Shown: in pieces, positions 40,439 through 57,386 of the stretch | Layout of the letters: each line of letters opens with the position of its first letter | Position numbering within the stretch: the stretch's first letter is position 1 | DNA from: Anaeroplasma bactoclasticum | GTDB taxonomy: Bacteria; Bacillota_I; Bacilli_A; Acholeplasmatales; Anaeroplasmataceae | Length of the DNA: 64,000 bases | Direction of reading: 5' to 3' | Assembly (NCBI RefSeq): GCF_003550015.1 | Contig: NZ_QXEV01000002.1 | Location: forward strand, 1-64,000 | Position numbers and translations under genes: made by a program | The notes under the pieces: model-generated | What the model was told of the DNA's origin: nothing | Seen by the model: the letters and a program-made list of their open reading frames with translations, nothing else | Database searches by the model: none

Positions 40439-40526
40439 AAAAGAAAATGCGAAGCTTTTGAATTTGGCTTCGCATTTTAATATGTCTATAAAATAAAAAA
40501 ATGACCTAAGTCATTAATGGCAGGGG
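40439..40526. repeat. Direct repeat copy 2 (att-like), with tRNA-Trp end
   Basis: See copy 1 at 38908. Here the TGGCAGGGG end continues into the complete tRNA-Trp gene. The GCGAAGC hairpin (40448-40476) ends the + strand genes. Confidence 0.8.
40494..40514 (-). terminator. Terminator of the tRNA operon
   Basis: On the minus strand ATGAC, loop TTAG, GTCAT, then seven T; four bases after the CCA end of tRNA-Trp. Confidence 0.8.
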
Positions 40527-40592
40527 CAGAAGGATTCGAACCCTCACTAACGGTTTTGGAGACCGGCTTGCTACCATTGACAATATGCCCCT
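40518..40592 (-). tRNA. trnW: tRNA-Trp (CCA)
   Basis: Cloverleaf on the minus strand: acceptor AGGGGCA/TGCCCCT, anticodon loop CTCCAAA (anticodon CCA), T-loop TTCGAAT, discriminator G and encoded CCA. It resembles the Bacillus tRNA-Trp. It follows tRNA-His with a 10-base gap. Confidence 0.93.
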
Positions 40593-40602
40593 ATAGAATA
40601 CA

Positions 40603-40679
40603 TGGGGCGCATAACAGGGATCGAACCTGCGCATAACGGAGCCACAATCCGCCGTGTTAACCACTTCACCATATGCGCC
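40603..40679 (-). tRNA. trnH: tRNA-His (GTG)
   Basis: Acceptor GCGCATA/TATGCGC with an extra 5' G (-1) opposite C73, anticodon loop TTGTGGC (anticodon GTG), T-arm GGTTCGATCCC, encoded CCA. The G-1/C73 pair is the hallmark of tRNA-His. Confidence 0.93.
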
Positions 40680-45916: not shown

Positions 45917-45969
45917 CAAGTGTTTTCATTTGATAAACACTTGTTTTTGATTTTAAAACATACTATAAT
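45917..45969 (+). promoter_or_regulatory. thr operon promoter with operator-like inverted repeat
   Basis: TTGTTT (45941-45946), 17 bp, TATAAT (45964-45969). CAAGTGTTT-N9-AAACACTTG (45917-45943) overlaps the -35 box, so it may be a repressor site. No threonine-rich leader peptide or T-box is visible. Confidence 0.6.
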
Positions 45970-46000
45970 AATAACAAAAGTTTTTTTGGAGGATTATTAT

Positions 46001-47425
46001 ATGTTTCATAGTACTAGAGGAGAAAAGCTTGTATCATCACCAGAAGCCATTTTAAATGGCCTTGCAGATGATGGTGGCTTATATGTTATAGATAAAATAC
46101 CAAGCCTAGATTATCATGATTTATTAAATGATGATTACCAAACGATTGCGGCTAAAGTTTTAAATAAATTCTTTCCTGAATTTACTTATGATGAGATTAA
46201 AAAAGAATTAGATATTGCCTATTCTACTTTTGATATTAAAGAGGTAGTAGGGATGAAGAAGGCAGATAATGCATTCTTCTTAGAGCTATATCATGGTCCA
46301 ACTCTAGCTTTTAAAGATCAGGCATTAGTTGTACTTCCAAGATTAATGAAGCTTTCTAAGGAAAAGCTTGGATATGAAAAGAATATTACTATATTAACTG
46401 CAACAAGTGGTGATACTGGTGGAGCTGCATTAAATGGATTCCAAAATGTAGATGGTGTATCTATTGTTGTTTTATATCCTAATGGAGGAGTATCTCCTGT
46501 ACAGGAAGCACAAATGTGCTCTTTTAGAAGTAAGAACGCAGAGGTATTAGCCCTAGAGGGTAATTTTGATGATTGCCAGAATTTCGTTAAAGAATTCTTT
46601 AAGAACCATAAGGATTTAAGCCTATCTAGTGCGAACTCTATTAATATTGCAAGATTAGCACCACAGGTAGTTTATTATTTCTATTCTTATGTATATTTAT
46701 TAAGAAATGGCTATATTAAAGAAAATGATAAGGTAAACTTTGATGTACCTACAGGTAACTTTGGTAATATTTTTGCAGGCTTTTATGCAAAGAAGATGGG
46801 TTTACCTGTTGGTAATTTAATTTGTGCTTCAAATAAGAATTGTGTATTAACAGACTTTTTCTTAAATGGTACATATAATAAGAATAGACCATTCTTTAAG
46901 ACAAATTCTCCATCTATGGATATTTTAATTTCTTCTAATTTAGAAAGATTTTTATATTATGGAAATAATGAATCAACAGAAAAAACTAAAGGCTTAATGG
47001 AGCAATTAGTAACTAAGGGAACATATGATTTTAAGAATCCATTTAAGGAATTCTATGCATATTCTACAGATGAGGAAAAGACATTAAAGGTTATTAAGGA
47101 AGTATATGATAAATATAATTATTTAATAGATCCTCATACTGCAGTTGCATATAATGCATATAAGGAATATGAAGAAGAAACTAAGGATAATAATATTTGT
47201 GTAGTTATATCTACAGCATCTCCATATAAATTCCCTCAGTCTGTCTTGGAAGCATTTGGAATTATAGAAGAGGATGCAATGAAAGCAGTAAATACCTTAA
47301 ATAAGAAGTTTAATCTAGAAATACCTAAGGTATTAAATTATCCAGCTGTAAAAAGAAAGATTGTATCCTTAAAAGATTCTGTTTCTTATGTTGAGGAAGT
47401 GGTAAAATGCTTAAAATCAAAGTAG
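46001..47425 (+). CDS. thrC: Threonine synthase
   Basis: PLP enzyme that turns O-phosphohomoserine into threonine. It opens with MFHSTRG and DDGGLYV, the PLP Lys is in LAFKDQAL, and TATSGDTGGAAL and YPNGGVSPVQ are phosphate/PLP loops. 474 residues, the ThrC long type. GGAGG fixes the ATG at 46001; the frame open from 45920 is not used. It overlaps thrB by 19 bases. Confidence 0.93.
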   Translation: MFHSTRGEKLVSSPEAILNGLADDGGLYVIDKIPSLDYHDLLNDDYQTIAAKVLNKFFPEFTYDEIKKELDIAYSTFDIKEVVGMKKADNAFFLELYHGPTLAFKDQALVVLPRLMKLSKEKLGYEKNITILTATSGDTGGAALNGFQNVDGVSIVVLYPNGGVSPVQEAQMCSFRSKNAEVLALEGNFDDCQNFVKEFFKNHKDLSLSSANSINIARLAPQVVYYFYSYVYLLRNGYIKENDKVNFDVPTGNFGNIFAGFYAKKMGLPVGNLICASNKNCVLTDFFLNGTYNKNRPFFKTNSPSMDILISSNLERFLYYGNNESTEKTKGLMEQLVTKGTYDFKNPFKEFYAYSTDEEKTLKVIKEVYDKYNYLIDPHTAVAYNAYKEYEEETKDNNICVVISTASPYKFPQSVLEAFGIIEEDAMKAVNTLNKKFNLEIPKVLNYPAVKRKIVSLKDSVSYVEEVVKCLKSK

Positions 47426-48273
47426 AAGCTACATCCGCTAATGTATGTGTTGGCTTTGATGTGCTTGGTATAGCATTAAATCTATATAATGAATTCACAT
47501 TCAAGAAAAGTAGTGAATTTAAGTTTGTTGGCTTTGAAGAAGAATTTTCCTCTTGTGAAACGAATTTGGTTTATGAAGCCTATAAATATGTATTTGATTT
47601 AGCTAAGGAAGTAATAGTTCCTGTAGAGATTGGATTTATTGGTGATATCCCTGTATCTAGGGGACTTGGGTCTTCCTCAAGCCTAATTGTTGCAGGAATA
47701 TTTGCTGCAAATTATTATTTAAAGAATAAATATTCTAAAAGAGAATTATTTGATATTGCAACTGCTATAGAGGGACATCCAGATAATGTCGCTCCAGCCA
47801 TTTATGGTGGTTTAGTCGCAAGCTATCAAAAGGATGGTAAATATTATCCAAATATTTATCCTATTCATAAGGATTTAAAATTTAGTGTAGTTATTCCTAA
47901 TGTTAAGGTATCTACCCATGATGCAAGAGGGGTATTACCTAAGGAATTACCATATAAGGATATTGTTTGGAATTTATCTAGAATTGTAAATTTACCTAAA
48001 GCCTTTATGGAAGGTAATATAGAATTATTAAAGGATTTATTTAGTGATAAATTACATGAACCATATCGTTCTAAGCTTATTCCAGCTTATAGTGATATAA
48101 AAAGTATAATAAATAAATATAATGCTGCATTTGCTATTTCAGGGTCTGGATCAACGATGTTAATCGTTTCAAAGGATTTATCATTCATGGATGAGTTAAA
48201 ACAAATTGACTATCCTGTTTTAACACTAGAAGTAGGAAGTGGTGTAAAGGTGGAGGAATTATATGAAGGATGA
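47407..48273 (+). CDS. thrB: Homoserine kinase
   Basis: GHMP kinase of 288 residues: ATSANVCVGFDVLG at the N terminus, the ATP loop PVSRGLGSSSSL, and GSGSTMLIVS at the end. It makes the O-phosphohomoserine used by ThrC. Embedded in an operon with overlaps on both sides (19 and 11 bases). Homoserine dehydrogenase is not in this window. Confidence 0.92.
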   Translation: MLKIKVEATSANVCVGFDVLGIALNLYNEFTFKKSSEFKFVGFEEEFSSCETNLVYEAYKYVFDLAKEVIVPVEIGFIGDIPVSRGLGSSSSLIVAGIFAANYYLKNKYSKRELFDIATAIEGHPDNVAPAIYGGLVASYQKDGKYYPNIYPIHKDLKFSVVIPNVKVSTHDARGVLPKELPYKDIVWNLSRIVNLPKAFMEGNIELLKDLFSDKLHEPYRSKLIPAYSDIKSIINKYNAAFAISGSGSTMLIVSKDLSFMDELKQIDYPVLTLEVGSGVKVEELYEG

Positions 48274-48694
48274 TGAATATTACGTAATTCATAGATCTGT
48301 ATTACCAGACTATTTTGAAAAGGTTATTGAAATTAAGGAAATAATATCTTCAGGTGTAAATATTAGTGATGCTTGTAAAAAGGTTGGCTTATCTAGAAGT
48401 ACCTTCTATAAATATAAGGATTATGTAAACCGTCCATCCACTAAGGTTGGAAAAAGAGTATTATTATCCTTCAAGCTAGAGGATGAACCTGGTGCCCTAT
48501 CTCATATTTTAAATGAGATTGCATCTAGAAATGCGAATGTTTTAGCAATCAACCAGGAAGTACCTATTCATAATATTGCATTCGTTAATATTACTGCAGA
48601 TATTATGAAGATGGAGATTTCTATTCAGGAGTTTATTCAAGAGCTAAAGAACTTAAAGAATATTTTAGACGCAACACTTTTAGCTGTAGAATAA
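48263..48694 (+). CDS. ACT-domain protein (UPF0735/PheB type)
   Basis: A helical N-terminal part (residues 1-60, with a HTH-like SGVNISDACKKVGLSRSTFY) and an ACT domain (about 70-140: SFKLEDEPGALSHILNEIA). Small proteins of this type sit in amino-acid operons and are thought to sense amino acids. The 11-base overlap with thrB suggests a role in threonine control. Confidence 0.83.
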   Translation: MKDDEYYVIHRSVLPDYFEKVIEIKEIISSGVNISDACKKVGLSRSTFYKYKDYVNRPSTKVGKRVLLSFKLEDEPGALSHILNEIASRNANVLAINQEVPIHNIAFVNITADIMKMEISIQEFIQELKNLKNILDATLLAVE

Positions 48695-48698
48695 ATTA

Positions 48699-48727
48699 TT
48701 TACATTAAAAGGTTATTTTGTTATAAT
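48699..48727 (+). promoter_or_regulatory. acpP promoter
   Basis: TTTACA (48699-48704), 17 bp, TATAAT (48722-48727). Confidence 0.75.
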
Positions 48728-48985: not shown

Positions 48986-48993
48986 TAGTAAAG

Positions 48994-49017
48994 GGACTAC
49001 GGTGTAGTCCTTTTTTT
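48994..49017 (+). terminator. Terminator after acpP
   Basis: GGACTAC (48994-49000), loop GGT, GTAGTCC (49004-49010), seven T. Confidence 0.9.
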
Positions 49018-49040
49018 CTTTAAAAGGAGGTGTTGCATAA

Positions 49041-51032
49041 ATGAATAACTGGAATTCTAGATTTATAAAAGAAAAGTGCTATTCACTAGATAATGATAGA
49101 TTTAAAAAGAAGTCTTTTGTTTATGCACCATTTCCAGAAATAGATAAGCATGGATTTCAAGATGGAGAGATTAGAAGTATTATTTATTCTGATATCATAG
49201 CTAGATTTTTAAGAATGGAAAATGAAAATGTATTATATCCTACTGGCTTTAATTCTATTACTTCAAAATCCTTCTTAGAAAGTAAAAAGCTTTATAAGGT
49301 TTTAGATTCTAAAACAGAAGAAATCTTTTATAATCAAATGAGTGATTTAGGAATAGGTATTTCTAATGAAAAATCTATCTCTATGAGAGGAGTAGAATAT
49401 ATATCTATTCTACAAAATGCCTTTATTGAGCTTTATGAAAAGGGCTATATTAAATATAAAATGTGGAATCCTTATTACGATAAGGATACCAATGAAATAT
49501 ATGATTCCTTTTTAGGCGTTAATTTACCTAAGGGCTCTTTAAAATGCTTTATTTTAGATATTGATGGTATGATTCCTCAGATTGTAGCGGATATAGAAAA
49601 AATAAATATAAGTAATGAGGATAAAGAATATCTCATATCTAAATTTGAACCATGTAAGGTTTTAAAGGTTGAATTCTTTATGAGTAATGGTAAAGCCTTA
49701 GAAATTGAAATGGAAAATCCAGAATATATGGGTGGAATATCCTATATATTCATAAATCCAAATTATATGGATATAGCTGGATATGTATCTATGGATGAAA
49801 GGGAAAGTGTAGAAGAATATATAAATAGTGATAATATGCTTTATGCATATAGTGGATTATCTGCGAAAAATCCACTAACTGGTACGGATATTCCTATATT
49901 CATTTCCAAAATGTATTCTAAAAGTATTTATTTAGGAATCCCATCTGTAGATAGTGAGGATGCCTTATTCGTATTAAATGAAGGCTTTGATTCTATAGAT
50001 ATTTTAAGTGAAGATGGACTTTTAATGAATTCGGATTTATTAGATGGCTATACTCCTATAGAGGCAAGAGAAAAGATTATCGAAGCCTTCACAGAGGCAT
50101 TAATAGGTAGTGTATCTCATGAATATAAAAATCATGAAATATTATTATCTAGTCTAGAGCCCTTTGGAGCGTTATTTCCTTTTTTAGAGGATAAAGATAA
50201 GCTAAATTCCTTAAGTGAATACCTACCCTATTTATTTTCTAGTCAGTTTAGACCTGTATTAGGTGAGGATGTAGAAGTATCAGGTACTCCTATAACAGGT
50301 ACGATGAGTTCCTTTATAACAGAAGGCTTATGTCCTACACTTTCTTTAATATATGATGAAATTGGTTCTATAGAATCCATATTTTCTATAGACACAAAGG
50401 AATTATATGAATCCTTCTTACCAATTAAAAAGGCTTATATTGAGAAGGATAAAATGATAACCTCTTTATTAATGCCTATTATTTTTTATAACATCATAAA
50501 AAAAGAGGTAAGCTATGCCCTACCGGATTTGTTTTTAGATGTTACATTTGTAGATAAGTCCTTAGATATTCATCATAATAGAATAAGAAGAAGTAATAAT
50601 AATTTAATGGATATGGACCGCTATATTCAAAAATTTGGATGTGATTCTATAAGATTACTTGTAGGTGAGAGTAATCCGGATATGGAAATGATTTATGATA
50701 CATATCATTTAGAGGATTTAACAAGCTATATTCAAGATATTAAAAGAACATTACTCGGGGCCAAAAGTGATGATGTATTAAGCCTAGATTATTATTTTCA
50801 TAAGCTTATTGATAGTACAAGAGAAGCACTTGATAATGGTAATATTTTAAAATATGTTGAAATATTAAAAGCATTTAATGATAATGTATTATTTAAAGAA
50901 AATATATCCAAAAGCCAAGCATTCGATTATATAAGAGTTATTTATCCTATATTCCCTTCCTTAGCTGAAGAGGTATATAGTAGTTTATTTAATGGTAAGT
51001 ATTCTTTAATTAATGAAGGATGGCCAAATTAA
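49041..51032 (+). CDS. Leucyl-tRNA synthetase-like protein lacking HIGH and KMSKS
   Basis: The whole 663 residues follow the LeuRS order. The first half of the nucleotide fold aligns (SFVYAPFPE, then YSDIIARFLRMENENVLYPTG), but the HIGH position reads QDGE (40-43). The tRNA-synthetase turn QNAFIELYEKGYIKYKMWNP (125-144) is kept. The editing (CP1) domain (about 205-345) keeps NPLTGTDIPIFI, GIPSVDSED and LMNSDLLDG with the conserved Asp304, but not the Thr-rich loop. The KMSKS position reads RIRRSNNN (514-521) before RYIQKFGCDSIRLL. It should not activate leucine; its role is unknown. AAGGAGGTG starts it. Confidence 0.8.
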   Translation: MNNWNSRFIKEKCYSLDNDRFKKKSFVYAPFPEIDKHGFQDGEIRSIIYSDIIARFLRMENENVLYPTGFNSITSKSFLESKKLYKVLDSKTEEIFYNQMSDLGIGISNEKSISMRGVEYISILQNAFIELYEKGYIKYKMWNPYYDKDTNEIYDSFLGVNLPKGSLKCFILDIDGMIPQIVADIEKINISNEDKEYLISKFEPCKVLKVEFFMSNGKALEIEMENPEYMGGISYIFINPNYMDIAGYVSMDERESVEEYINSDNMLYAYSGLSAKNPLTGTDIPIFISKMYSKSIYLGIPSVDSEDALFVLNEGFDSIDILSEDGLLMNSDLLDGYTPIEAREKIIEAFTEALIGSVSHEYKNHEILLSSLEPFGALFPFLEDKDKLNSLSEYLPYLFSSQFRPVLGEDVEVSGTPITGTMSSFITEGLCPTLSLIYDEIGSIESIFSIDTKELYESFLPIKKAYIEKDKMITSLLMPIIFYNIIKKEVSYALPDLFLDVTFVDKSLDIHHNRIRRSNNNLMDMDRYIQKFGCDSIRLLVGESNPDMEMIYDTYHLEDLTSYIQDIKRTLLGAKSDDVLSLDYYFHKLIDSTREALDNGNILKYVEILKAFNDNVLFKENISKSQAFDYIRVIYPIFPSLAEEVYSSLFNGKYSLINEGWPN

Positions 51033-51034
51033 AA

Positions 51035-51060
51035 GAGCAATGGTGTCATTGCTCTTTTTT
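51035..51060. terminator. Bidirectional terminator
   Basis: GAGCAATG (51035-51042), loop GTGT, CATTGCTC (51047-51054), then TTTTTT; AAAA precedes it. Between convergent genes. Confidence 0.87.
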
Positions 51061-51978
51061 CATCCCCTGGTATAGATGCTCTTTTCTTAATTTTTTATCT
51101 ATTTCATTCATAACAACCATCTTTTTTCTTGTCCATTTTGGTTCAATTAAATCAGAATAAACTCCATCTGCAGCTAGCCTATGGATGATGATATCATCTC
51201 TTAGGTATGTAATTTGTGTTGTAACGATATCTACATATTCTTCTAAGGATAAGATTTTAAATGGTTTTTCTTTATATAGCTGTCCAAGCTTTGTATGCTC
51301 TAAAATTAATAGAGAATGAAACTTAATTCCTTGAATATCTAGAGTATTAATGAATTTAATTGTATTTATCATATCTTCCTTAGTTTCATTAGGTAGTCCA
51401 TTAATGATATGTAATACAATTTCTATATTTTCTTTTCTAAGTAAGCTTATTGCTTTAGTGAATTCACTATTGCATTCTAGCTGATTGATGAATCTTTTTG
51501 TTTCATCGCTTGCGGATTGTAATCCTAATTCTACAGTGATTTTTTTTCGTTTATTTAATTTTCCTAAATAGGCTGCAATTTCTTTTGTGATACAATCCGC
51601 TCTAGTTGCAATATCTAAGCCTATGATATCCTTATCGATAGATAATACCTCTTCATAAATTCTTTTTAATTCATCTAAATTTGAGTAAGTATTTGAATTT
51701 GCTTGTAAGTATGCAATAAAGCCTGCGTTAGGCCACTTTTTAATCATAACCTCTTTAACGTCTTGGTATTGTTCTTTAAGCGGCTTATTTTTGTCTCCAG
51801 CAAAATCTCCACTACCCAGCTTAGAACAGAAGATGCATCCACCATACCCCTTTTTACCATCCTTATTTGGACAGGTGAAGTTTGCATTTAAAGATATTTT
51901 GGCTATTTTTTTGCCATATAATGCTTTATAATATTCAGTTAATGTGTTATAGGGCTTATCTTTTGTAAAATAGTTCAT
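51046..51978 (-). CDS. Radical SAM protein, YhcC/TIGR01212 type
   Basis: Radical SAM protein of 310 residues. The family N terminus is clear: ISLNANFTCPNKDGKKGYGG with CIFC giving the three cluster cysteines, then IAYLQANSNTY and LGLQSASDETKRFINQ. The C terminus ends RWTRKKMV-like in the family sense (EPKWTRKKMVVMNEI). Function of the family is not settled; a tRNA-modifying role has been proposed for relatives. Single-gene unit. Confidence 0.87.
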   Translation of the reverse strand: MNYFTKDKPYNTLTEYYKALYGKKIAKISLNANFTCPNKDGKKGYGGCIFCSKLGSGDFAGDKNKPLKEQYQDVKEVMIKKWPNAGFIAYLQANSNTYSNLDELKRIYEEVLSIDKDIIGLDIATRADCITKEIAAYLGKLNKRKKITVELGLQSASDETKRFINQLECNSEFTKAISLLRKENIEIVLHIINGLPNETKEDMINTIKFINTLDIQGIKFHSLLILEHTKLGQLYKEKPFKILSLEEYVDIVTTQITYLRDDIIIHRLAADGVYSDLIEPKWTRKKMVVMNEIDKKLRKEHLYQGMKKEQ

Positions 51979-52112
51979 AGTATACCTTCTTTAGATAATT
52001 ATATTTTAAAGTTTTTATGAATGAAAGTGAAAAGTAAAAGATATTTTATACCACTACAAAAAAAATACTTTTTTTGGTATAATGGGCTTGTTCACAAAAA
52101 GGAGGGATGATG

Positions 52113-52910
52113 ATGTTTAAAAAATTTAAGAATATTGTATCACACCCTTCTTTACTTGGGCTATATTTTATGGATCATTGGTATACGGTAGTTGGCTGGT
52201 GGTTTTTATTTTTTTGTATTACCTGTGTATTTTTATCTATTGTAGATTTAACTAAGCCTAGATTAGATAGCAATGTAGCAAGAAGAATAAGTGATGCCCT
52301 AGCATATAATCATGTCATTGATGATGCCAAATATGAAAATAATACACTTACTGGTTCATATAAGGTAATAGAAACAGAATATTGTATTATTTCATTTAAT
52401 GATAATGCATTTATGAATAATCATGTATCTAGTGGATTAATTGTAGTTTTTGGGAAGGAAAATGCGAATGTGTTTTTTTCTACATTCCATTTAGGTAGAT
52501 TAAATTATAGTGATTTAAAGATTAAAGATTTTAATATTAAGGATATAAAGAGTGGTAATATTGAAATGCGTATCGCTTTTGAAAGCTTTATAGAAAAGGG
52601 CTTATCCTCAGGGGAAGCTAATTATAGAGCTATTTGTTTTTTCAATGATTTATTTGGAATTATTATGTATTATCTTTTAACCTTAGTTGTTTGTTATTTT
52701 TTAGCATGGATAATAAACCCAATGGTAGAAAGAAGATTTAGAATAAAGCTTATTGGCTATTCATCTTTGATTTATTATTTGTTTATTTGGTGCAAGCTAT
52801 CCTTTAGTATGGATGCACTTTTATATATTGGTATATTCTTTTCTTTAGTTTATACAGTTTTTACATTTACTCATATTCGCTTAGTAAGAGTAGGAAGGAG
52901 GAAAAAATAA
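52113..52910 (+). CDS. Membrane protein before polC
   Basis: One membrane helix (about 25-48), an external domain (50-175) and three helices near the C terminus (about 178-200, 213-232, 238-258). The layout resembles DUF1189-type proteins, but I could not confirm it. GGAGGG at 52101-52106 fits the third of three ATGs (52113). polC starts at the base after its stop, so they are one operon. An extended -10 TGGTATAAT lies at 52075-52083. Confidence 0.62.
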   Translation: MFKKFKNIVSHPSLLGLYFMDHWYTVVGWWFLFFCITCVFLSIVDLTKPRLDSNVARRISDALAYNHVIDDAKYENNTLTGSYKVIETEYCIISFNDNAFMNNHVSSGLIVVFGKENANVFFSTFHLGRLNYSDLKIKDFNIKDIKSGNIEMRIAFESFIEKGLSSGEANYRAICFFNDLFGIIMYYLLTLVVCYFLAWIINPMVERRFRIKLIGYSSLIYYLFIWCKLSFSMDALLYIGIFFSLVYTVFTFTHIRLVRVGRRKK

Positions 52911-55900
52911 ATGACAATAATTGAATCAATTATGGCTTCAAATCTATTAAAGGAAGATAATACTATCCGAATTGATGAGGCCATATTTAAAAGAAATTCC
53001 AAAAAATTAAATATTTCCTTTGTCCTTACCTACGCGATTGATTATGAGACATATAAAGCATTAGAGGCCCATGTATCTAATTTATTAGGTCCTCTAAATT
53101 TAACCCTAGATTATTCCTTTGGTTATGAGGATGAAACATTAACTGTAGAAGAATTGAAAGGGTATTTAAAGGCTATTTTAGATGAATTATATAAAGAGTC
53201 CTCTAACTTTAAAAGCTTACAAATAGGCGATGCAACATTTGTTGGAAATGAAATAGAATTTGTAGTTGCCTATGATGCTTTAGGTATTGATGAATTATGT
53301 CCTAAGGTAGAAAAGGAATTTGAAAAATATGGTTTATCTGTTCATGTTAAGGCGATAAGGGATCAAGAAAAATCTATTCAAGCACAAATTGATGCACTTG
53401 ATTCTGAAATTGAAGAAACTCTACAGAAGCAGCGCCAAGAGGCTATGCAGGCAAAGAAATTTAATAAAGAGGTTCAAGAACAAAAGAAGTATAGGAAATC
53501 TTTAATTCCTGATTCATATACTTCTATTAAAAATATTCCTGCAACCCAAAGTGGATTAAGTGAATACTTGCATACAAAGGGTGAGGCTATTTTTAGAATT
53601 AAAGGATATGTTTTTGGTCTTGAGGTAAAGGACTTTGCGAAATCCTCTATATTGTTAATGAAGGTTACCGATGAAACAGATTCTATTGTAGTTCAAAAGT
53701 GGCTAAGAGGAGATAAGGAAAAGGAATTATATTTAGGTGATGGTGGTATTAAAGTAGATACGATCGTTGATGTAGCAGGTAATGCCACTTATGACCAGTA
53801 TTCCGATAGAATTATTTTGAATTCAACCAATATTCAAATGGTTGGTATTCATAAGATTGAAGAGGTAATGGATGATGCCCCAGTAAAGAGAGTTGAGCTT
53901 CATTGCCACACGAAGATGAGTAATATGGATGGCCTAACGGATGCGGCAGATTATGTTAAGCTTGTATCTAAATGGGGATGGAAATCTATGGCATTTACAG
54001 ATCATAATGGATGCTATGCTATTCCAGATGTTGACCATGCGCTAGCTAAATTCCCTGAATTTAAACCTATTTATGGTACAGAATTATCCTTAGTTGAGGA
54101 TGATGAATATTTTATTACCTTTAATGAGAGGGATATTCCTTTAAGAGATGCTACATATGTTGTATTCGATATTGAAACAACAGGTTTATCTCAAACCTAT
54201 GATAGAATTATTGAAATTGCAGCCCATAAGGTTAGAGGCGGAACTATTGTTGATGCATTTGAGGTATTTGTTAACCCAAAGATGCATATTCCTGAAAAGA
54301 TTACAGGAATTACATCCATTACGGATGATATGGTAAAGGATGCCAAAACAATTAAAGAGGTATTACCGGAATTCTTAGAATTCTGTAAGGATTGTATTTT
54401 AGTTGCTCATAATGCAAAATTCGACGTTGGTATGATTTATAGAGACATGAAGCTACTTGGCTTACCAATGGTTGAATTCCCTGTAATTGATACACTTAAT
54501 TTATTTAGAGCAGGCTATTATAAAGAGGTAAAGGCCTTCAACCTAAAGGTATTATCTAAATACTTTAAGATTAAGCAGGAGCATCATCACCGTGCAACAG
54601 ACGATACAAGAGTAACAGCACTATGCTTTATTCAGATGCTACAGGATTTATATAATAAAAAGATAGAAAATTATAAGGATATCAATTCCTTAATTGATCC
54701 AAGTGTTCATTTTAGATATGTTATCCCATATCATATTATTTTAATTGCTAAAAACCCTGTAGGCTATAAGAATATGTTTAAGATTCTATCGGATGCGATG
54801 ACTTATCATATGTGGGAATCTGAAGCTAGAGCCTTAAAGAGCGTAATTGAAAAACATAGAGAAGGTATATTATTATCTAGTGCTTGTGCAAATGGTAAAG
54901 TATTTGAAATGGCTTTAAATAGAAGTGATGAGGAACTAAGGGATGCTATTTCTTATTATGATTATATAGAAGTACAGCCACCTCTAGCTTATAAGCAATA
55001 TTATGTTGAATTCCCTAATGCAGAAGAAAGAATTCAAGAGGTAATTAAAAAGATTATTCGTATATCTAAGGAAATGGGGAAGATAGTTGTTGCAACATCT
55101 GACTGTCATTATGCTAGACCTAGATTAAAGAAATATAGAGATATTTTAATTGAGGTTCCACAAATTGGTGGTGGAACACATCCTTTAAAAAGAGCATTTA
55201 TGGCTAATTCTACTCCAGATATGCACTTACGTACAACAAATGAAATGCTTTCAGAATTTGAATTCTTGGGTAAGGATTTAGCTTATGAAATTGTTGTAAC
55301 AAATACAAATTTAATTGCAGATTCCATTGAAAAATGGCCAGCATTCCATCCAGATATGTATGCCCCAAGAGATGATGAATTTAAGAATAATTTCTTACAT
55401 ATTGAATCCATTGAGGAAGAAACAAGAAGAATTGTTGGACAAACATGTAAGGAATTATACGGTGATAATCCTCATCCAATTGTAAAGAAAAGATTAGACC
55501 ATGAGCTTCATTGTATCATTTCTAATGGATATGCATCGATTTATTACATTTGTCATTTAATGGTTAAAAAATCACTAGAGGATGGATATCTAGTAGGCTC
55601 TAGAGGTTCTGTTGGATCATCCTTGGTTGCAACCATGATGAATATTTCTGAAATTAATCCACTTGCTCCTCATTATAGATGTAAGAAGTGTCACTTCCAT
55701 ACATTTAGAATGAGAAAGGATGAAATAGAAGAATATGGCTTAACAGATTTAGAAAAGCCATTCCAGGAGGCTTTACAAAATGTGGATTCTGGTTATGACT
55801 TAGATGATGCAATATGCCCTGTATGTGGTGCACCACTCGCTAAGGATGGTCATGATATACCATTTGAAACCTTCTTAGGCTTTAATGGTGATAAGACACC

Positions 55901-57386
55901 AGATATCGATTTAAACTTCTCAGGTGAATATCAGCCTAGAGCTCATGAATATGTAAGAACTGTATTTGGTCCTGAAAATGCCTTCCGTGCAGGTACTGTA
56001 GCTACAATTGCAGATAAGAATGCCTTCGGTTATGTTAAAGGATTCTGTGAAAGACAAAATATTACTATGAGATCTTGTGAAATGGATCGTATAGCTTCTT
56101 ATTTAATTGGTATTAAGCGTTCTACAGGACAACACCCAGGTGGTATTGTTGTTGTACCACATCATGTAGATATTTATGATGTAACTCCAGTACAATATCC
56201 TGCAGATAATATTGAAAACCCATGGAGAACTACACATTTCGATTATCATTCCTTTGAACAAAACCTACTTAAGTTTGATATTCTAGGACACGATGATCCT
56301 ACCTTAATTAAGTATTTTATGGATTATGTTCATCTTCATCAAGAGGAATTCCCATTTGAAAAGCCACAGGATATTCCAATTGATGATAAAAACCTATATC
56401 GATTATTCTATGATCCAAGTGTAATTGGTGTAACACCTGAGGATATTGATTCTAAGGTAGCATCCTATGCTGTACCTGAGCTTGGAACAAACTTCGTAAG
56501 AGGTATGCTAATTGAAACATTACCAAGAACATTTGCCCAGCTTGTAAAAATTTCAGGTCTATCCCATGGTACAAATGTATGGAATAATAATGCCCAAGAG
56601 CTTGTAAAGGGCACTACAGAATTTGGAGAAATAAAATTTAAAGATATCATTGGTTGTCGTGACGATATCATGGTTGATTTAATGAGAATGGGTCTAGATC
56701 CACTTAAATCCTTCAAGATTATGGAATTCGTCCGTAAGAATAAAAAGGTTAAGGATATGAATGGATGGTTAGATTTCCAAAAATATATGCGTGAGCATAA
56801 TGTACCAGAATGGTATATTTGGAGCTGTGATAAGATTGAATACATGTTCCCTAAGGCTCATGCGACAGCATACTGTATGATGTCATTAAGAATTGCATGG
56901 TTTAAGGTATATGCTCCAACCCTATTCTATAGTGCTTGGTTTTCTAAGCGTGCGAAAAACCATGTAGTTCATGCTTATTTAGGTGGTAAGATTGCCATTC
57001 GTGCAGCAATGGAAGAAATTATGAATAAGAGTGGTAGAACTGCAACAGATGATGATAAATATACAGCACTTCAGGTAGCACTAGAATGTGTTGCAAGAAA
57101 AATTAATTTCTTACCTGTTTCTGTATTAAAATCTTCAGCTACAAACTTTGATCCTGAGGATGGTAATTTAAGAATTCCATTTAGTGCAGTAGATTCTTTA
57201 GGTGAGGCCATTGCAATTGATATCGTAGAAAAAAGAGAAGAAAGAGCATTTACATCGAAAAAGGATGTATTAAAGAGAACTCGTTTATCTCAAACATTAT
57301 ATGATGAATTTGATGTAATGCATTATTTTGATGATTTACCTGAAGAGGATCCTGAAAAAGAAGAGGGATTATTCGCCCTATTATAA
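52911..57386 (+). CDS. polC: DNA polymerase III alpha subunit, PolC type
   Basis: Replicative polymerase of 1491 residues. Domains in order: N-terminal domain, OB fold (about 225-310), PHP part 1 (VELHCHTKMSNMDGLTDAADY, from 328), an inserted DEDDh exonuclease (YVVFDIETTGL near 422 to HHRATDDTR near 562), PHP part 2, the polymerase palm and fingers (GSRGSVGSSLVA; PDIDLNFSGEYQ catalytic Asp pair), the zinc cluster C-C (KKCHF, CPVCGAPL), and the C-terminal beta/tau-binding end. AGGAGG precedes the ATG. PolC is typical of low-GC Gram-positives. Confidence 0.95.
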   Translation: MTIIESIMASNLLKEDNTIRIDEAIFKRNSKKLNISFVLTYAIDYETYKALEAHVSNLLGPLNLTLDYSFGYEDETLTVEELKGYLKAILDELYKESSNFKSLQIGDATFVGNEIEFVVAYDALGIDELCPKVEKEFEKYGLSVHVKAIRDQEKSIQAQIDALDSEIEETLQKQRQEAMQAKKFNKEVQEQKKYRKSLIPDSYTSIKNIPATQSGLSEYLHTKGEAIFRIKGYVFGLEVKDFAKSSILLMKVTDETDSIVVQKWLRGDKEKELYLGDGGIKVDTIVDVAGNATYDQYSDRIILNSTNIQMVGIHKIEEVMDDAPVKRVELHCHTKMSNMDGLTDAADYVKLVSKWGWKSMAFTDHNGCYAIPDVDHALAKFPEFKPIYGTELSLVEDDEYFITFNERDIPLRDATYVVFDIETTGLSQTYDRIIEIAAHKVRGGTIVDAFEVFVNPKMHIPEKITGITSITDDMVKDAKTIKEVLPEFLEFCKDCILVAHNAKFDVGMIYRDMKLLGLPMVEFPVIDTLNLFRAGYYKEVKAFNLKVLSKYFKIKQEHHHRATDDTRVTALCFIQMLQDLYNKKIENYKDINSLIDPSVHFRYVIPYHIILIAKNPVGYKNMFKILSDAMTYHMWESEARALKSVIEKHREGILLSSACANGKVFEMALNRSDEELRDAISYYDYIEVQPPLAYKQYYVEFPNAEERIQEVIKKIIRISKEMGKIVVATSDCHYARPRLKKYRDILIEVPQIGGGTHPLKRAFMANSTPDMHLRTTNEMLSEFEFLGKDLAYEIVVTNTNLIADSIEKWPAFHPDMYAPRDDEFKNNFLHIESIEEETRRIVGQTCKELYGDNPHPIVKKRLDHELHCIISNGYASIYYICHLMVKKSLEDGYLVGSRGSVGSSLVATMMNISEINPLAPHYRCKKCHFHTFRMRKDEIEEYGLTDLEKPFQEALQNVDSGYDLDDAICPVCGAPLAKDGHDIPFETFLGFNGDKTPDIDLNFSGEYQPRAHEYVRTVFGPENAFRAGTVATIADKNAFGYVKGFCERQNITMRSCEMDRIASYLIGIKRSTGQHPGGIVVVPHHVDIYDVTPVQYPADNIENPWRTTHFDYHSFEQNLLKFDILGHDDPTLIKYFMDYVHLHQEEFPFEKPQDIPIDDKNLYRLFYDPSVIGVTPEDIDSKVASYAVPELGTNFVRGMLIETLPRTFAQLVKISGLSHGTNVWNNNAQELVKGTTEFGEIKFKDIIGCRDDIMVDLMRMGLDPLKSFKIMEFVRKNKKVKDMNGWLDFQKYMREHNVPEWYIWSCDKIEYMFPKAHATAYCMMSLRIAWFKVYAPTLFYSAWFSKRAKNHVVHAYLGGKIAIRAAMEEIMNKSGRTATDDDKYTALQVALECVARKINFLPVSVLKSSATNFDPEDGNLRIPFSAVDSLGEAIAIDIVEKREERAFTSKKDVLKRTRLSQTLYDEFDVMHYFDDLPEEDPEKEEGLFALL

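Follow-up and report, generated by a model that had tools for sequence, protein, structure and literature searches.

Why a bacterium should keep a gene that resembles leucyl-tRNA synthetase (LeuRS) and yet lacks both catalytic signatures of that enzyme is the question raised by a locus in the window, the stretch of 64,000 nucleotides analysed here. The window belongs to the family Anaeroplasmataceae (f1) of the order Acholeplasmatales. As the earlier note had read it, the 663-codon frame is intact, with an open reading frame behind a strong ribosome-binding site (Table 1). The translated frame matched the NCBIfam model of bacterial LeuRS (leuS_bact, TIGR00396) with an E value of 3e-24 and 85.2 bits against a cut-off of 548.4, and Pfam returned only fragments of the class I core (tRNA-synt_1g), the LeuRS editing domain and Anticodon_1. 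The fold predicted by AlphaFold2 from a 50-row alignment had a mean pLDDT of 91.7. When this model was compared with LeuRS and other structures by Foldseek and VIA-align, LeuRS ranked first throughout (Z 30–36 over 505–652 residues), the best 49 of 50 VIA rows were LeuRS and the best PDB matches were all LeuRS, so that the whole chain is predicted to adopt the LeuRS fold. Kinship with LeuRS, proposed earlier from a recognizable and complete order of domains, is thus upheld by profiles and fold. The order is not complete, since the C-terminal tRNA-binding domain of LeuRS (∼71 residues) is absent past the last residue of the window protein and several internal LeuRS inserts are shorter.

Table 1. 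The LeuRS-like gene and its surroundings; positions are those of the window.
Feature	Position	Strand	Basis
Promoter-like site just 5' of acpP: TTTACA, 17 nt, TGn-TATAAT, 11/12	48699..48727	+	Consensus scan; such matches are common by chance
acpP-type acyl carrier protein (ACP), 75 aa	48758..48985	+	TIGR00517, 71.1 bits, over cut-off; adjacency counts
Intrinsic terminator between acpP and the LeuRS-like gene	48990..49014	+	Scan; shuffle test
Ribosome-binding site AGGAGGT	49025..49031	+	Read from sequence
LeuRS-like pseudo-synthetase ORF, 663 aa, probable displaced resident leuS	49041..51032	+	ATG start, 663 codons, open frame; profiles, fold, synteny, trees
QDGE in place of HIGH, codons 40-43	49158..49169	+	Alignment
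CP1 (editing-fold) domain, residues about 161-362, approximate borders	49521..50126	+	Alignment and model
Tyr229, position of E. coli LeuRS Thr252 in the editing pocket	49725..49727	+	Alignment
Asp307, equivalent of E. coli LeuRS Asp345, invariant 50/50	49959..49961	+	Alignment
RIRRS in place of KMSKS, codons 514-518	50580..50594	+	Alignment
Anticodon-binding-type helical domain, residues about 546-663, fastest evolving; protein end	50676..51029	+	Alignment, dN, entropy
mnmL/ytqA tRNA-modification radical SAM gene, ancestral leuS neighbourhood	51046..51978	-	TIGR01212, 293 bits; same place in sister families
Membrane protein, 267 aa, before polC, ancestral neighbourhood	52107..52910	+	Conserved synteny
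polC-type DNA polymerase III, right-hand anchor of the block	52911..57386	+	Called PolC from sequence; synteny

The motifs were surveyed in an alignment of the window protein, 49 orthologues and 20 true LeuRSs. The replacement of HIGH by QDGE and of KMSKS by RIRRS, claimed in the earlier note, was borne out, and the loss extends through the orthologues: none of the 50 proteins keeps either histidine of HIGH, the first lysine of KMSKS is replaced in 42, and an arginine occupies its second position in 34. The GGxEH motif and the RQRYWG arginines are lost as well, and D80 is lost in part. In the editing domain the earlier description of a kept aspartate and a missing Thr-rich loop also held. The loop (TTRPDTLFG) is replaced in all orthologues, with T247, T248, R249 and the histidine of HDxRD gone; the positions of T247, T248 and T252 are M224, E225 and Y229 in the window protein, and that of T252 is Tyr in 32 of the 50 and Tyr, Phe, Leu or Glu in nearly all. 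The D345 equivalent is the sole invariant residue of the editing site. Because the catalytic motifs are lost, charging by the window protein is, judged by its motifs, excluded. A search for the true leuS of the same genome, suggested earlier, found a gene of normal length on another contig (G000 C9), which scored ∼970 bits summed over two one-frame matches and 946 bits as a coding sequence.

Scaffold residues common to LeuRS are invariant (D51, P240, G272, D307, D535 and R538), and the CP1 fold is the part that can still be recognized by eye in the sequences of f1 and of two related families, f2 and f4. Within the LeuRS-like proteins the anticodon domain has both the highest dN and the highest entropy. 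Net charge averages −27.6 (−40 for the window protein), compared with about −18 for LeuRS. A few acidic residues (D373, D439 and D509) are newly conserved, which would leave room for new chemistry. Cyclodipeptide synthases are likewise class I synthetase folds without HIGH, but they are small and have gained a conserved catalytic serine (PMC2922099), whereas in our orthologue alignment neither a newly near-invariant serine in the N-terminal Rossmann half nor any other candidate nucleophile was seen.

Orthologues of 650–675 residues were found in 50 of the 54 f1 genomes, covering six of seven genera, with identities from 76% down to about 22%; most of the genomes examined are metagenome-assembled. 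The four f1 genomes without the gene are incomplete in this region: one (G048) lacks any ACP gene, another (G032) has an ACP gene that stops about 100 bp short of the contig end, and completeness is 78% for G005 and 84% for G022. Outside the order, no orthologue was detected among 395 genomes of the class. For the window gene and its nearest relative the dN/dS ratio was 0.18; four further pairs gave 0.04, 0.06, 0.09 and 0.15. The breadth of retention excludes chance, and the low ratios establish that the gene is maintained by purifying selection, as had been supposed from the intact frame.

The position of the gene is a clue to where it came from. The block reads acpP, leuS, mnmM, mnmL, membrane protein, polC in the sister families f3 and f5, where leuS is true and the only one; the order in the window equals this block, with the LeuRS-like frame occupying the leuS slot. 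More widely, 57 of 68 sister-family genomes, phytoplasma-like ones included, have acpP as the gene next upstream of the true leuS. The mnmM gene (ytqB), which adjoins mnmL in f3 and f5, is absent from that place in the window, where mnmL stands alone; the membrane protein has no NCBIfam match and is conserved ahead of polC across most of the order.

Sequence kinship agrees with the slot. A maximum-likelihood tree separated the LeuRS-like proteins together with the LeuRSs of f3 and f5 from all others (bootstrap 100, SH-aLRT 98), and the grouping received an SH-aLRT of 99 in an 81-row tree. A profile of the LeuRS-like proteins scored f3 and f5 LeuRSs at up to 325 bits, compared with 220–253 bits for those of f1. 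The LeuRS tree has long branches, and the synteny argument is independent of it. In lineage-diagnostic columns, resident states outnumbered the others by 148 to 72 cells in f1, and the counts were 13 to 12 in f2 and 4 to 4 in f4; the columns mildly favour a resident origin in f1 and are even in f2 and f4. The present LeuRSs have foreign affinities: those of f1 and f2 nest among other families of Bacilli and not with their order-mates, and that of f4 branches with Clostridia.

Slot synteny, the tree and these foreign affinities together lead us to consider it rather probable that the window gene is the resident leuS, which gave way to a LeuRS acquired by horizontal transfer and survives as a pseudoenzyme with a non-catalytic role. 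The original Acholeplasmatales leuS would have been inherited vertically and would have stayed in its ancestral slot, with acpP on one side and mnmL/polC on the other. Charging of tRNA-Leu would have passed to a horizontally gained LeuRS in an ancestor of f1, f2 and probably f4. Both signature motifs, HIGH and KMSKS, would then have gone from the resident protein, together with its editing loop, its C-terminal tRNA domain and the residues of its leucine and ATP sites, and purifying selection would have preserved the LeuRS scaffold. Bacterial LeuRS (leuS, TIGR00396), especially the resident enzyme of f3 and f5, shares with the LeuRS-like protein the fold, gene position, kinship and scaffold residues, and differs in still having all the elements listed as lost.

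Known synthetase-like proteins have usually arisen by duplication (reviewed in PMC9437257), and in genus g6 the LeuRS gene lies only 15–40 kb from the LeuRS-like one. That the latter is a paralogue of the host's present LeuRS, inactivated after duplication, is nevertheless highly unlikely, and we rejected this origin on both tree and synteny: the gene sits in the ancestral leuS slot, forcing it to group with the f1 and f2 LeuRSs cost 65 log units (p-AU = 7e-14) when the opposite grouping is strongly supported, and those LeuRSs have their relatives outside the order.

LeuRS-like genes occur in two further families. The f2 copy, again next to acpP and with LeuRS encoded separately, is 706 residues long and nearer to LeuRS, with HIGH lost and KMSKS deleted. 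Taken alone, this single copy grouped with the f3 and f5 LeuRSs with a support of 75, and the alternative was weakly disfavoured, not rejected (p-AU = 0.095). In f4, acpP is followed by a LeuRS-like remnant of 517 residues (L227 5313-6866 in G057), with LeuRS again elsewhere. Since the LeuRS of G057 groups with Clostridia, the f4 remnant may stem from another displacement, independent of the first.

The usual account of a synthetase-like protein is a duplicate that has drifted; in this case the redundant resident orthologue of an essential gene would have been kept in a dead form. A literature search found no published description of this LeuRS-like protein or of a bacterial LeuRS pseudoenzyme, and we know of no described case. 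Synthetase pseudoenzymes are thus known as a kind, and it is the displaced orthologue, in place of a duplicate, that is unusual. That the gene persists in its native operon throughout a family of gut and rumen bacteria and in their relatives implies that LeuRS has a function separable from charging, one that the foreign enzyme was unable to provide; a second function of LeuRS in bacteria thereby becomes directly testable. Annotation calls for care, as pipelines may label the gene a fragmentary LeuRS and synteny alone would name it leuS.

The gene appears to be transcribed with its upstream neighbour. A hairpin followed by a T-tract was present in the gap between acpP and the LeuRS-like gene at 30 of 35 loci, compared with 0–2 of 140 dinucleotide shuffles; this result comes from a strict test, an earlier and laxer criterion having passed 77% of shuffles. 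A 50-bp gap that contains a terminator offers no evident space for a second promoter, which argues for co-transcription, and the promoter-like site 5' of acpP is the likely transcript start for both genes. The LeuRS-like protein would then be made by read-through of the terminator from the acpP transcript, at a level below that of ACP. No riboswitch or T-box was found in the window, for which Rfam gave two tRNAs only; genes for tRNA-Trp and tRNA-His lie at 40518-40678 on the minus strand.

Because the gene is kept family-wide without its catalytic motifs, the LeuRS-like protein probably does something else, so far undescribed. We favour, at roughly even chances and from sequence features, a non-catalytic binding protein that acts as a regulator or scaffold. 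The remodelled Rossmann/CP1 body would bind a protein partner or a small ligand without catalysis, and such a role would be a second function of LeuRS, either retained or newly won. A regulator was among the roles proposed in the earlier note and is possible.

The earlier proposal of a tRNA-binding factor has been weakened. A chaperone or regulator that binds tRNA-Leu or some other RNA would be well served by the anticodon-type domain and the full CP1/Rossmann body that are kept, and there are precedents: the archaeal LeuRS-I of Sulfolobaceae and LeuRS2 of Halobacteria are altered second LeuRSs beside a working one, with no purpose assigned, and bind tRNA-Leu but charge it poorly or not at all (PMC9437257). 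These paralogues still make Leu-AMP or some Leu-tRNA (PMC9437257), however, whereas here both signatures are gone, and in the archaea the odd copy is the extra one, whereas here it would be the resident gene. The missing C-terminal domain is the part of LeuRS that contacts the variable arm of tRNA-Leu (PMC5059758). With this loss, the greater acidity of the protein and an anticodon domain that evolves fastest of all, tRNA binding seems rather unlikely.

A partnership with ACP is unlikely, although the arrangement of the genes invites it. The protein might bind holo- or acyl-ACP and so link lipid supply to translation, or be a carrier-protein-dependent transferase. Of 51 genomes with the LeuRS-like gene, drawn from three families, 48 have acpP immediately upstream at a distance of about 50 bp, while the genes beyond it vary by genus (thrC, thrB and an ACT-domain gene, window 45920-48694, precede acpP only in genus g1), and a shared transcript is likely. 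Other synthetase homologues, the aa:CP ligases related to SerRS, GlyRS and AlaRS, are found beside carrier proteins, as here, and load them; they are class II and catalytic and have lost the tRNA-binding domain (PMC9437257), whereas the LeuRS-like protein has a class I fold and no activation motifs. Its ACP neighbour, moreover, is inherited from leuS, as the frequency of the same pair with an ordinary leuS in the sister families attests, and we dropped the pairing as proof of an ACP-linked function for that reason. The pair is also broken in two g3 genomes, and the LeuRS-like protein is acidic, as is ACP. That the two form a functional pair, the pseudo-synthetase sensing or binding holo-, acyl- or aminoacyl-ACP and coupling lipid synthesis to translation, is quite unlikely. 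If it were true, the ACP role may already have been a second job of the ordinary LeuRS of the order, and the gene would have outlived catalysis on its account.

The editing factor considered in the earlier note is contradicted by the alignment. A CP1 domain that hydrolyses mischarged tRNA in trans would be in keeping with the preserved CP1 fold and the invariant D345 equivalent, but the threonines, the arginine and the HDxRD histidine of the site are lost, and a bulky residue mostly stands at the T252 position. The substitution T252Y alone disrupts editing in E. coli LeuRS (PMC4695839), which makes trans-editing very improbable. Finally, a slowly decaying relic without function is scarcely credible: the fast change in sequence, the loss of every catalytic motif and the much shortened f4 version would fit decay, but frames stay open in 50 genomes over the full range of divergence, with low dN/dS, a strong ribosome-binding site and conserved length.

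SLIMP, the inactive mitochondrial SerRS paralogue of insects, is a synthetase pseudoenzyme kept for a role other than charging; it is class II and a duplicate, and forms a heterodimer with SerRS (PMC9437257). The same review of duplicated synthetases covers LeuRS-I, LeuRS2, HisZ and the aa:CP ligases (PMC9437257). In genus g1, the tree places the working LeuRS (L059) and that of a second genome (G007) with the LeuRS of family f9, a placement that points to LeuRS having been replaced a second time in this genus. The LeuRS-like gene stayed while LeuRS was exchanged again, so an obligate, SLIMP-style partnership with the active enzyme appears unlikely. The working LeuRS of the window's genome (G000 C9 29286-31646) is itself odd, with HAGH, KMGKR followed by a three-residue insert, and TTCIETIYG as its editing loop. 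The G007 enzyme is of the same kind, and in G008, G010, G019 and G034 a broken LeuRS match suggests that these genomes share the insert.
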